Program-made: the position numbers and the translations under genes
Shown: positions 2,432 through 29,975 of the stretch, piece after piece
How positions within the stretch are numbered: position 1 is the first letter of the stretch
Layout of the letters: each line of letters begins with the position of its first letter
Notes under the pieces: generated by a model
What the model saw: only the letters and a program-made list of their open reading frames with translations
Databases searched by the model: none
What the model was told of the DNA's origin: nothing
Assembly: GCA_001897435.1 (NCBI GenBank)
Contig: MKSV01000003.1
Span: forward strand, 715,250-779,249
Direction of reading: 5' to 3'
Source of the DNA: Acidobacteriales bacterium 59-55
GTDB taxonomy: Bacteria; Acidobacteriota; Terriglobia; Terriglobales; Acidobacteriaceae
DNA length: 64,000 bases

Positions 2432-4240
2432 ATGACGCGCAAACTGACCTGCAAACTCCTCCCCGCACTTACCCTCGCACTTGGAACGATACTCGCCATG
2501 CCGAATCATGCCGCCGCACAGCGCGTCTCCGCCGATGGAGCGACGCAGACCTTTCACTTCATCTCCGATCAGTACTTCAGCGACGTGTACTTCCACTTCG
2601 CGCCGACGGCGGGGACCAGCGCCGGGCTGCACCAGTACGACAATCAGCTTGAGGACTACTCTGCCGCCTCGATCGAGAAAGAGACGGCCGCGCTGCATGA
2701 GTACGAGAAGAAGGTCGAGGCCATCGACCCCAGCGCGCTCGACGCCAGCGTGGCCGGCGACCGCGAGATCCTGCTCAACAACATCCGCTCGCAACTGCTG
2801 ACGCTCGAGGTGATCCGGCCCTGGGAGAAGAATCCGGACAACTATTCCTCGGGGATCACGTACTCGATCTTCGTGCTGATGGAACGGCCCTACGCGCCGC
2901 CGGCGGTGCGGCTGCGCGCCGTGATCGCGCGCGAGAAGCTGATTCCGCAGGCGCTCGACGAGGCGCGCAAGAATCTCAAGAACCCGCCGCACATCTTTAC
3001 CGAAATTGCGCTCGAACAGATCGACGGGCTGGTCAGCTTCTTCGAGAACGACGTTCCCGGCGCTTTCTCCAGCGTGACCGATCCCGGCACCAAGGCCGAC
3101 TTTGCCAAATCGAACGCCGCCGCGGTCGCCGCGCTCAAGAGCTACGGTGCGTGGATGAAGACCGACCTGCTGCCGCGCTCGAACGGCGACTTCCGGCTGG
3201 GCGCGGAGACCTTCCGCAAGAAGCTCGCCTACGACGAGATGGTGGATATCCCTCTCGATAAGCTGCTTCAGATCGGCTTCGACGACCTGCACAAGAATCA
3301 GGCGGAGTTCGCCCGCGTGGCCAAAGAGGTCGATCCGACGAAGACGCCGCAGCAGGTGCTGGCCGAGCTGGCTACGATTCATCCCGCGCCGGACAAGCTG
3401 CTGGCGGCCTTCCAGAATACTTTCAACTCGCTGATCGGCTTTATCAACGCGCATCACATTATTACGATCCCGAGCACGGTGGAGCCGACGCTCGAAGAGA
3501 CGCCGCCCTTTATGCGGGCGACGACGTTCGCTTCGATGGACCCTCCGGGACCGTTCGAGACGCACTCGAAGAAGGCCTACTTCAACGTGACGCTGCCGGA
3601 GAAGAGCTGGACCGCCGAGCACATCGCCGAGCACATGGCCAGCTTCAACGTGGGCACGATCATCAGCACCAGCGTGCATGAGGCCTACCCCGGCCACTAC
3701 GTGCAGTTCCTGTGGATGCCGGAGTTTCCCAGCAAGATCCGCAAGCTGCTGGGGGCCAATAGCAACATCGAAGGCTGGGCGCACTACACCGAGCAGATGA
3801 TGCTGGACCAGGGCTACGACGCTCCGGGGCCGAATGCCACGGCGGCCCAGATTCGCCAGTCGCGGCTGGTGCGGCTGGGGCAGTTGCAGGACGCTCTGCT
3901 GCGCGATGCGCGCTTCGTCAACTCCATCAAGCTGCAGACGGGCGAAGGCGAGCCAGACGGCAGGTGGACGATGCAGCAGGCCGAGAACTTCTTCGTCAAG
4001 CAGGGCTATCAGTCGCAGTCGGTCGCCGTGGTCGAGACCAAGCGGGGCACGGCGGACGCCACCTATCTTTACTACACGCTGGGCAAGCTCGAGATTATGA
4101 AGCTGCGCGAGGACCTGAAGAAGAAGGAAGGCGACAAGTTCAATCTTGAGACATTCCATGACAACTTCATGCGGCAGGGTTTTGCGCCGATCAAGATCAT
4201 CCGCAAGGCCATGCTGCACGACGACTCGCCGGTGCTGTGA
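2432..4240 (+). CDS. Secreted DUF885-family metallopeptidase-like protein
   Basis: A protein of 602 residues. The ATG at 2432 gives a clear signal peptide (basic start, hydrophobic LLPALTLALGTILAMP, then AAAQ cleavage-type end); an in-frame TTG 72 bases upstream would hide it. The body matches the DUF885 family, which carries an extended HExxH-like motif. Here HEAYPGH lies at residues 416-422, followed about 36 residues later by the conserved GWAHYTEQMMLDQGY helix that normally supplies the third ligand glutamate. DUF885 proteins are usually assumed to be periplasmic zinc peptidases; substrate unknown. It is a stand-alone gene after two repeats and has no obvious partner. Confidence 0.85.
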   Translation: MTRKLTCKLLPALTLALGTILAMPNHAAAQRVSADGATQTFHFISDQYFSDVYFHFAPTAGTSAGLHQYDNQLEDYSAASIEKETAALHEYEKKVEAIDPSALDASVAGDREILLNNIRSQLLTLEVIRPWEKNPDNYSSGITYSIFVLMERPYAPPAVRLRAVIAREKLIPQALDEARKNLKNPPHIFTEIALEQIDGLVSFFENDVPGAFSSVTDPGTKADFAKSNAAAVAALKSYGAWMKTDLLPRSNGDFRLGAETFRKKLAYDEMVDIPLDKLLQIGFDDLHKNQAEFARVAKEVDPTKTPQQVLAELATIHPAPDKLLAAFQNTFNSLIGFINAHHIITIPSTVEPTLEETPPFMRATTFASMDPPGPFETHSKKAYFNVTLPEKSWTAEHIAEHMASFNVGTIISTSVHEAYPGHYVQFLWMPEFPSKIRKLLGANSNIEGWAHYTEQMMLDQGYDAPGPNATAAQIRQSRLVRLGQLQDALLRDARFVNSIKLQTGEGEPDGRWTMQQAENFFVKQGYQSQSVAVVETKRGTADATYLYYTLGKLEIMKLREDLKKKEGDKFNLETFHDNFMRQGFAPIKIIRKAMLHDDSPVL

Positions 4241-6788: not shown

Positions 6789-6828
6789 CCCATCCTTTGT
6801 GCAAAAACGCACAAAGGATGGGGCACCC
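6789..6828. repeat. Family C hairpin repeat, copy C1
   Basis: Perfect 14-bp inverted repeat (CCCATCCTTTGTGC, loop AAAAAC, GCACAAAGGATGGG) followed by GCACCC. It lies between the convergent ferritin and dehydrogenase genes and could stop transcription from both sides, although no T-run follows. The right arm GGATGGGGCACCC recurs inside ispE. Confidence 0.75.
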
Positions 6829-27363: not shown

Positions 27364-28479
27364 CTAGTTAAACAGCGTGCTGACGCTGGTCTCCATGTGT
27401 ATGCTCTCGATGGCGCGTCCCAGCAGACCGGCAATCGAGAGCACTTTAATCTTCGGCACCCGGAGCGCATCTTCGCGCAGCGGGATGGTATTCGTCACGA
27501 CGACCTGCTCCAGCCGTGATTCTGCGATGCGCTCGACCGCCGGCCCGGAGAGCACCGCGTGGGTCGCGCACGCATAAACTTTTTCCGCGCCCTGATCGAG
27601 CAGCGCGTCCGCCGTCTTCACCAGCGTTCCGGCGGTATCGATAATGTCGTCGAGGATCAGGCACGTCCGGCCACGCACATCGCCGATCACGTTCATCACC
27701 TCGGTCACATTAATATCGGTCCGCCGCTTGTCGACGATGGCCAACGGCACTTCCAGCTTCTTGGCGAAAAATCTCGCCCGCTCCACGCCGCCCGCATCGG
27801 GCGAAACCACGGTCAGATTGGGCAGCTCGAGATCCCGGAAGTAGCTCACCAGCACCGGGCTGGCGAAGAGATGATCGACCGGGATATTGAAGAAGCCTTG
27901 AATCTGCGCTGCGTGAAGATCGACCAGCAACGCCCGGTTCGCACCGGCCGTGGTCAGCAGATCGGCCACCAGCTTTGACGTGATTGCCACGCGCGGCCGG
28001 TCCTTGCGGTCCTGTCTCGCGTAGCCGTAGTACGGCATCACAACCGTGATTCGCCCGGCCGATGCGCGCTTCAGCGCGTCCATCATGATCAGCAGTTCAA
28101 CAAGATGCTGATCGACCGGGTAACACGTAGGCTGCACCAGAAAGACATCCGCTCCGCGAACGTTTTCGAGCAGTTGAAAATGAACCTCGCCGTCGGAGAA
28201 TCTCTGCAACCGGGTCTCGCCCAGCGGCACACCGACGAACTTGCAGATCTCCTCGCACAGCTTCGGATTGGAGGATCCGCAGAAAATCTTGATGCGCTTG
28301 CTCTCGCTCAGCTTGCCGGAGCGCTTTCTTTCGGCCGCCGTCTTGACCTGCCCGGCCTGTGCTGCCTGACTCGGGCCGCCCGAAGCGGCCGTTGCGGGCG
28401 CAGACTGGGAGCCGGATTCCGCATCCTCAGTCTGCCCTGAAACAGGGGAAAGAACTGCAGTCGTGTCTTGTTCGCTCAC
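27364..28479 (-). CDS. prs: Ribose-phosphate pyrophosphokinase with N-terminal extension
   Basis: Makes PRPP for nucleotide, His and Trp synthesis. It has 371 residues from GTG 28479, chosen because GGAGGG lies seven bases upstream. The first ~58 residues are low complexity (SAPATAASGGPSQAAQAGQ) and precede the normal Prs start (RIKIFCGSSNPKLCEEI). Family motifs: FSDGEVHFQLLENVRG, VMPYYGYARQDRKDRPR, the metal-binding DLHAAQIQGFF, VVSPDAGGVERARFFAKKL and the PRPP loop CLILDDIIDTAGT. The stop codon lies inside the family E repeat. A shorter start at the core cannot be excluded. Confidence 0.94.
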   Translation of the reverse strand: MSEQDTTAVLSPVSGQTEDAESGSQSAPATAASGGPSQAAQAGQVKTAAERKRSGKLSESKRIKIFCGSSNPKLCEEICKFVGVPLGETRLQRFSDGEVHFQLLENVRGADVFLVQPTCYPVDQHLVELLIMMDALKRASAGRITVVMPYYGYARQDRKDRPRVAITSKLVADLLTTAGANRALLVDLHAAQIQGFFNIPVDHLFASPVLVSYFRDLELPNLTVVSPDAGGVERARFFAKKLEVPLAIVDKRRTDINVTEVMNVIGDVRGRTCLILDDIIDTAGTLVKTADALLDQGAEKVYACATHAVLSGPAVERIAESRLEQVVVTNTIPLREDALRVPKIKVLSIAGLLGRAIESIHMETSVSTLFN

Positions 28480-28746
28480 GTTGAAACCCTCCAGGCTGGT
28501 TGACCTTGGTAGTTCCTGCTGCCTTGTCTCGCGAGGTCTTGTTGCGACCCCGTACGTCTCTCGAAAAATCCTTGTTGCGAATACTGCGAAAGCTAAGACT
28601 GTTCCTTCAAACTTCTGACATCTTCTGTCCGCTACGTTGCCGCGAACCAAAACCGTTTCACCTCTGCGGCACATTGCTGCCGCCAAAGAACCCTGAATCC
28701 ATCTCGCGTCCGGATCACGCCTGGATCGCACCTGGCGTCGACATTC

Positions 28747-28820
28747 TGGCTGGGCGACTAGGATTCGAACCTAGACAAAGAGATTCAAAGTCTCTTGACC
28801 TACCATTAGTCGATCGCCCA
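28747..28820 (-). tRNA. tRNA-Gln (UUG), CCA encoded
   Basis: On the minus strand a full cloverleaf is seen: acceptor TGGGCGA/TCGCCCA, D stem GAC/GTC with AATGGTAG loop, anticodon stem AGAGA/TCTCT with loop CTTTGAA (anticodon TTG), T stem CTAGG/CCTAG with TTCGAAT loop, discriminator G and genomic CCA. It sits between ispE (36 bp upstream) and prs (267 bp downstream); the ispE - tRNA-Gln - prs order suggests co-transcription. The 267-bp gap to prs holds no gene. Confidence 0.96.
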
Positions 28821-28856: not shown

Positions 28857-29975
28857 CTACCCTGCGAACATTCTCTCCCAGTAAGCTGCCCTGGGCAAAG
28901 TCTCCGTCAGGAGAGTCCGGACCCCGGTTTCGGACGCAGCCGACTGGACGCGCTGTTGAGCTGCCCGCGCATCTGCCACGGACCGGTAAAGTCCAAACAG
29001 AGCCGAACCCGAGCCCGAAAGCGCCGCATACAACGCTGGAGCTTCAGAGTCGGTACCCATCAATAAACGCTTGATTTCACGCAAGGAGGGATAAGCAGGA
29101 AAGACGACCTGTTCAAAGTCGTTTTCAACCCCGGTGCGGACAAGCGAGAGAAGGGTATTCTCCGCGAGATCGTTCCGAAAGCCGCCCTGAACATCATCAG
29201 AACTCCCCTGTTTTTTCTCAGGATTCAGGCTGCGAACGATACCGGAAGTGCCGGGCTCTGCATACAGAGACGCATAAGCGAGGCTCAACTCCCTTAGTCT
29301 ATCGATTCCAGCCGCCGCCGTCAATCCACCCCCGCTCCTCGCAGTACCCCCTCCGGGTGCCCCATCCTTCGCGGCCGTATCGCGAAGGGTGGGATCAACG
29401 GTTCCCGCCAACGCATCCCAGTCCCGAAACGCCTGCGGCGTCGAGACTCCCACCTCCGGCACAGCCACCAGGCAGGCCATCGGCGGCAGGTCCGGCAGCG
29501 GAACCACCTGCTCTCCCCGGCCCAGCCCCAGAACCGCTCCGCCCAGCAGAAACAGCGGCACATCCGACCCCACCACTGCCGCCAGCTCTAGCCGGGCCGC
29601 CCCGGGCAAGGCAACGCCAAGCTCGCGCTCCAGCCCCAGCAGCGCCGCCGCCGCATTTGCGCTGCCCGCGCCCATGCCTCCCTGCACGGGAAGATTCTTC
29701 TCGATGGCGATCTCCACCTCGGCGGCCAGGCCGAGCCGCTCCAGGCACCGGTCGACGATCTTCCAGGCAGTATTCCGTTCGTCCGTCGGCACAAACCTGT
29801 GATTCGTCGTCAGGGAAATCCGCGTCTGCGCCGCCCGCCGCGCCGAGACCGTCACCACATCATGCAGATCGAGCGTCTGGTAGAGCGTCGTCAGAGCATG
29901 GAAGCCGTCGGCCCGCGCCGGCCCGATGGCCAGGCCCAGATTGATCTTCGAATAGGAACGAACGCGCGTAGCCAT
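28857..29975 (-). CDS. ispE: 4-diphosphocytidyl-2-C-methyl-D-erythritol kinase, with in-frame repeat insertion
   Basis: GHMP kinase of the MEP isoprenoid pathway. It has 372 residues against about 280-310 usual. The N-terminus RSYSKINLGLAIGPARADGFHAL and the ATP loop LPVQGGMGAGSANAAAALLG are normal, and the C-terminal LSGSGSALFGLY motif is intact. Between them, residues about 193-260 form a Gly/Ala-rich, family-atypical insertion. Residues 195-208 (DPTLRDTAAKDGAP) are encoded by a family C hairpin repeat. Because the frame and catalytic motifs are preserved the gene is probably functional. Upstream of tRNA-Gln and prs on the same strand. Confidence 0.93.
   Translation of the reverse strand: MATRVRSYSKINLGLAIGPARADGFHALTTLYQTLDLHDVVTVSARRAAQTRISLTTNHRFVPTDERNTAWKIVDRCLERLGLAAEVEIAIEKNLPVQGGMGAGSANAAAALLGLERELGVALPGAARLELAAVVGSDVPLFLLGGAVLGLGRGEQVVPLPDLPPMACLVAVPEVGVSTPQAFRDWDALAGTVDPTLRDTAAKDGAPGGGTARSGGGLTAAAGIDRLRELSLAYASLYAEPGTSGIVRSLNPEKKQGSSDDVQGGFRNDLAENTLLSLVRTGVENDFEQVVFPAYPSLREIKRLLMGTDSEAPALYAALSGSGSALFGLYRSVADARAAQQRVQSAASETGVRTLLTETLPRAAYWERMFAG
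29355..29394 (-). repeat. Family C hairpin repeat inside ispE, copy C2
   Basis: CCCATCCTTCGCG and CGCGAAGGGTGGG form a 13-bp stem (one G-T pair) with a 7-base loop, flanked by GGGTGC. The arm GGGTGCCCCATCC is the exact complement of the arm of intergenic copy C1. It is read in frame as part of IspE. Confidence 0.8.

Follow-up and report, generated by a model that had tools for sequence, protein, structure and literature searches.

The window, a 64,000-nt stretch of the genome of Acidobacteriales bacterium 59-55, carries ispE on its reverse strand, followed downstream by a tRNA-Gln gene and by an open frame holding prs. IspE has a single match in the genome. The best prs profile match covers its open frame only from residue 143 onward, which probably places the true start of prs inside that frame. 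The features considered here are as follows.

28857..29975, reverse strand: ispE, 372 aa (TIGR00154 score 154.4, cut-off 138.7)
29355..29393, forward strand: REP hairpin (GGGTGC, a 13-pair stem and a 7-nt loop; 39-nt palindrome), whose antisense corresponds to IspE residues 195-207
29337..29405, reverse strand: ~69 nt (IspE residues ~191-213) not present in either of the two closest relatives; approximate borders
29296..29324, reverse strand: embedded sigma70-like promoter, TTGACG (29324-29319), 17 nt and TAGACT (29301-29296), in codons TTG ACG ... GAT AGA CTA
29116..29291, reverse strand: predicted structured RNA in ispE, helices P0-P3, core covariance-model match at 29126-29251
28747..28820, reverse strand: tRNA-Gln (ttg), 475 nt downstream of the -10 box
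27364..28731, reverse strand: open frame holding prs (ribose-phosphate diphosphokinase)
6789..6828, reverse strand: a further, intergenic copy from the REP family of the ispE hairpin

An earlier note on this DNA had described a palindrome with a 13-bp stem at 29355, inside ispE, and an arm shared with an intergenic copy at 6789-6828. Both observations hold: the hairpin spans 29355-29393 (residues 195-207), and the 13-nt arm GGGTGCCCCATCC has exact matches at 29355-29367 (+) and 6816-6828 (-). Folded as DNA, the forward strand forms a stem of 13 pairs, a single G-T pair among them (z = -2.99; 1 of 200 shuffles did as well); in the ispE sense strand a C-A mismatch replaces one stem pair. Counted over just the 64-kb window, the arm at up to two mismatches was found twice against 2.82 expected, which is not above chance. 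Across the 4.92-Mb genome, the arm at up to one mismatch occurred at 52 places versus four for a reversed control, and the full hairpin pattern at seven versus none, which is above chance. We kept 45 hairpins of this family from 51 distinct listed places, leaving out six by inspection. A wider pattern, GGGTGCCCCAYNY, was present in all 41 genus genomes searched, at 4 to 238 places each (reversed control, 0 to 4). Half of the copies examined (20/40, the ispE copy included) have no stop in any of the six frames, which would ease in-frame capture. One close relative, G023, has few REPs: for one pattern and among the matches listed, it had two places versus 34 in G000 and 46 in G001.

A Y1 transposase gene in G000:C3 is flanked by four copies of the family, two on each strand, at 258967 (+), 259139 (+), 259737 (-) and 259793 (-). 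The whole open frame matches NF047646 (REP-associated tyrosine transposase, RAYT) at 100 bits (cut-off 80) and contains HVH, which we take to be the HUH motif of Y1/HUH transposases. The REP at its 3' end has the loop GATACGGCC (read on the ispE sense strand), identical to the loop of the ispE copy. Given this arrangement of four oppositely oriented copies around a RAYT gene, the ispE hairpin is, on sequence grounds, a RAYT-associated REP element, and the G000:C3 RAYT may have mobilized it. The tag expected at the foot of GTAG or CGTC REPs is missing: GTAG/CGTC occurred within 6 nt 5' of one of 40 copies and, read as the complement, 3' of none, which rules out membership in either super-family; GTA[AG] lay within 8 nt 3' of the hairpin in 15/40.

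The neighborhood of these transposase genes yielded some further observations. The RAYT open frame (L166, 1459-1983) ends inside the adjoining REP, which supplies its stop codon. Two further RAYT-like genes, read as partial proteins, scored 76 and 85 bits and are flanked by other inverted palindromes. A GGGGCTAAAGCCCC-type palindrome flanks two RAYT-like genes other than the one in L166 (L167, L168); the same string recurs in L067, within its ispE linker, and the ispE linker of L269 encodes a peptide similar to that of the L067 string.

We then compared ispE with its counterparts in 54 aligned relatives, of which G001 and G023 are the closest (IspE identity 86% and 85%, respectively). The TP codons and the -35 box are 48 nt apart in both versus 117 nt here, a difference of 69 nt, or 23 residues. 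For this comparison, ispE was not found by motif in L062, L070, L073 and L134. Linker variation among species makes the borders of the insertion approximate, and no target site could be defined. The absence of these 69 nt from both closest relatives, together with the RAYT-flanking family, supports the earlier view that the repeat moved as DNA and kept the frame; the linker would be translated as read. Ordinary as an element, the hairpin is informative through its position.

The same note had attributed the extra length of IspE to the repeat and had tied residues ~193-260 to it. This part did not survive comparison. IspE lengths range from 329 to 424 aa across 106 genes (including this genome's own, with 10 second records of the same genome), whether the repeat is present or not; a length of 372 aa is therefore nothing unusual among them. 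Residues ~214-285 were found in repeat-free relatives, an outcome that the note itself had named as refuting its proposal. Only the ~23 residues at 191-213 are absent from the closest two, and the other ~70 linker residues are shared without the repeat, which we therefore rejected as the cause of IspE length. An AlphaFold model built with 55 sequences (mean pLDDT 81; below 50 at residues 205-219 and 240-272), with a fold matched by solved IspE structures (PDB 4dxl, 3pyd, 1oj4), puts the insertion in a linker modelled as disordered, between helix 179-192 and the C-terminal domain. Of the claim that the repeat creates new protein sequence, the added ~23 residues stand; they are modelled as disordered and give no sign of activity.

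Copies of the family were also found in frame in RNase R (rnr), PolA, MutS and MnmG (genes named by profile), so that, counting ispE, 5/45 hairpins are shown to lie inside conserved genes; long open frames were listed for 15/45, and six proteins were profile-tested. We aligned these proteins with those of 11 other genus genomes and recognized repeats by eye. G001 and G023 have neither the RNase R nor the MnmG insert. For the MutS insert, G023 shows a decayed counterpart and G015 a similar one; in PolA, G001 carries a different insert at the equivalent position. The MnmG peptide DPTLRDEAAKDGAPG corresponds to DPTLRDTAAKDGAPG in IspE. L030 and L163 were not counted as further in-frame copies, since the element lies upstream of the recognized domain. 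RNase R of L016 appears, by eye, to contain three repeat-like inserts (GAPSIAASSRWVG, PGAPGPDSGTW and PGAPRPASGTW).

Other species have REP-like hairpins in ispE as well. We examined 44 ispE linkers, comprising genus-level loci plus L088 from a Silvibacterium bin and representing 41 distinct genomes (second-record pairs L062/L070, L078/L266 and L084/L268). Seven (L038, which is this genome, L039, L050, L061, L067, L081 and L088) have a linker hairpin with a TGGGGCAC core; these use all three reading frames and share a single orientation. L039 and L067 may descend from one shared insertion, leaving at most six independent events, and a single orientation would be somewhat unexpected under random neutral insertion. 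A degenerate pattern covering the L039, L067, L050 and L061 hairpins matched at least 48 places in G034, at least 76 in G010, at least 26 in G017 and at least 23 in G019 (control, 0-1), counts that refer to the pattern and not to each exact hairpin. As a raw 8-mer count, the 8-nt core TGGGGCAC occurs in ispE of 18/96 distinct genes (106 less the 10 second records): seven at the linker, two near residues 56-59 and 10 near residues 126-165, with L050 having both the linker and the 56-59 core. At residues 126-165 the cores are in both orientations. The cores near residues 56-59 (L050, L053) and those near residues 126-165 (L086, L094, L115, L123, L127, L130, L131, L142, L146, L147) mostly have a visible hairpin and are in frame; L127 and L130 have an extra repeat-like insert, SSAKATAGPSTLLRCAQDD, adjoining their core.

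Directly downstream of this variable site lies a promoter motif, TTGAC-N17-TANNNT, with the hairpin just upstream of the -35 box. The pattern TTG[AC].. with a spacing of 16-18 nt was matched in 103/104 genes (L046 and L099 left out, 10 second records included; the gene without a match is L135), each time with 17 nt at the homologous place. In an alignment independent of the pattern, the -35 leucine codon is TTG in 95/96 genes, versus 20% of their leucine codons overall, and the -10 box is spelled by rare codons such as AGA and CTA. The strict motif occurred 89 times in the linkers of 94 genes versus 4.1 expected when synonymous codons were redrawn from the same gene, and not once in 81 kb of remaining ispE. 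(The ten second-record loci were removed from the codon-usage, strict-motif and 96-gene codon counts.) It was also found in 9/11 more distant genes of the same order or class and in 27/30 from the rest of the phylum, the latter being the best 30 of 111 matching genomes (119 searched); combined, the distant genes gave 36/41 versus 1.7 expected, with the 27/30 part again drawn from the best 30 of 111. E. coli ispE had no strict match.

An independent promoter scan of 1.3 kb returned a single site, the embedded one (0.1 expected), although the -10 box here, TAGACT, agrees with the consensus at only 4/6 positions. TTGACA/TATAAT-like hexamers spaced by 16-18 nt are thus present beyond chance, and the counts show that the ispE linker carries a sigma70-like promoter sequence beyond codon expectation. 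If it fires, it would feed tRNA-Gln and prs. The tRNA-Gln gene lies downstream of ispE at 20/20 relatives' loci (two genomes represented twice) and at 7/11 outgroup loci, and prs lies downstream at 10/11 outgroup loci, the remaining locus ending at a contig end. Across 14 loci, the -10 box and the tRNA are 417-617 nt apart.

The choice among synonymous codons is likewise frozen 3' of the promoter, where aligned leaders predict an RNA of four helices: P0 (the 29291 region with 29121-29116), P1 (CCGGU/ACCGG), P2 and P3. Alignments took 48/93 leaders and 45/91 cores. In the 48 leaders 96.9% of cells were paired, and cells with double changes numbered 149 versus 45 in shuffled and at most 20 in slid controls, with the structure derived partly from the same alignment; in the 45 cores they numbered 106 versus 29.5 shuffled and no more than 29 slid. 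Double changes are confined to P2 and P3; P0 and P1 are nearly invariant, so their support consists of constancy only. The RNA core pattern was not found in L055 and L057. P1 competes with a small alternative hairpin at the RNA's 3' end, and both vary too little to choose between them.

A covariance model scored the window copy at 59.6 bits (the window sequence being among the model rows) and had matches in 24/199 phylum genomes. Nineteen of the 24 belong to the same family as this bacterium, with one match each, all inside or over ispE; under stricter filters the genus genome G013 had none. The matches in G101, G143, G167, G222 and G133 (25.7-42.9 bits), with no ispE and no tRNA around them, were read as chance; in the two of these loci that were examined, L322 and L323, the match overlaps other open frames or runs antisense to them. 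In a second family of the order, weaker matches fell in ispE at 4/5 loci (L264, 30.1 bits; L257, 29.6; L256, 21.9; L265, 17.5; not L255). Elsewhere in the window, 3379-3485 (-) gave a weak second match (17.2 bits, E = 0.027). Searches against Rfam 15 returned only the tRNA for the window region at E ≤ 5, and for nine relatives at E ≤ 1 the tRNA plus four weak matches elsewhere, below gathering scores.

Several explanations of the hairpin can be weighed against these data. A GC-rich coding stretch might by chance pair with itself and resemble the intergenic copy, and both the moderate z-score and an arm no commoner in the window than in shuffles would fit; the genome-wide excess over the control rules this out, and the RAYT-flanking copies and the absence of the hairpin from the closest relatives also speak against it, leaving it vanishingly improbable. 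Adoption of the added residues as functional protein sequence, whether as a new loop or as a binding peptide, draws some support from their position in frame in a gene with a single match in the genome, the IspE pathway being usually essential, and from the nearly identical peptide in MnmG. Yet the region is disordered in the model and missing from the closest relatives, and the use of three reading frames among species at the ispE site implies that no common peptide was selected; we consider adoption very unlikely. A somewhat better case, though still an unlikely one, can be made for selection on the hairpin itself, recruited 5' of the -35 box because it acts on ispE transcription, as an insulator, pause site or terminator, or because it tunes the promoter: different hairpin types recur at one place in seven loci in one orientation. 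Against this, 37/44 loci are without such a hairpin, the distance from core to -35 box ranges from 6 to 126 nt, a terminator scan found none at the ispE hairpin, and REP-like hairpins occur at two other places in IspE and in linkers of other genes.

The reading that we consider very probable is that a REP whose family is linked to a RAYT (Y1/HUH) transposase entered the disordered ispE linker of Acidobacteriales bacterium 59-55, adding ~69 nt, and was kept because it did no damage to frame, kinase fold, promoter or RNA. Retention would follow from a length divisible by three, the lack of stops in all six frames, a linker tolerant of length change and a site outside the promoter. Landing just 5' of the -35 box, the insert would have left the kinase fold, the promoter and the downstream RNA all intact.

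The promoter and the RNA are the more novel result, with functions that we infer from their sequences. On balance we lean toward a view of Acidobacteriota ispE as multi-layered, in which an ancient codon-embedded sigma70 promoter (many families) and an RNA (two families of the order) would form a nested transcript or a leader for tRNA-Gln and prs, with the linker and two other loops serving as landing sites for REPs that enter as translated DNA. With in-frame REPs in five housekeeping genes, a RAYT-linked family of soil Acidobacteriota joins the cases reported for Rickettsia and some other bacteria, and the empty sites in close relatives allow direct comparison of insertion, frame use and decay. 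The larger point is that the same DNA seems to be selected as protein, as promoter (in many families) and as folded RNA (in two families; not in Rfam 15), which would make ispE a good system in which to study how a conserved enzyme takes up regulatory sequence and mobile DNA.

Koribacter versatilis is an acidobacterium. Related transposase genes have been described there with other terminal repeats flanking them, in a study that, in the parts of it relevant here, presents REPs as 20-40-nt dispersed palindromes flanking a RAYT gene, some in frame within genes (Di Nocera et al. 2013, PMC3733652). The precedent for in-frame REPs is clear from that account, and DNA polymerase I is among the REP-bearing genes it reports (PMC3733652); ispE, MnmG, MutS and RNase R are not named as hosts in the main-text parts consulted. 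The systems described in those parts resemble ours in palindrome size, dispersal, RAYT flanking, in-frame copies and PolA as host (PMC3733652), and the ispE family differs from the best-studied REPs in having no GTAG/CGTC tag at its foot. Compared by description, the Rickettsia palindromic elements (RPE) likewise are palindromes inserted in frame in many genes (PMC3733652), and unlike them copies of the ispE family flank a RAYT gene. Our searches among open-licence PMC papers turned up no report of REPs in these Acidobacteriota genes, of the ispE promoter or of the ispE RNA. The RNA is branched and covarying, as are structured-RNA families in Rfam 15, and differs in matching none of them and in lying wholly within coding sequence. 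The IspE enzymes of mycobacteria and E. coli (PDB 4dxl, 3pyd, 1oj4) share the fold found here; unlike them, this IspE has a ~95-residue linker, in whose DNA the REP, the putative promoter and the predicted RNA are all found.
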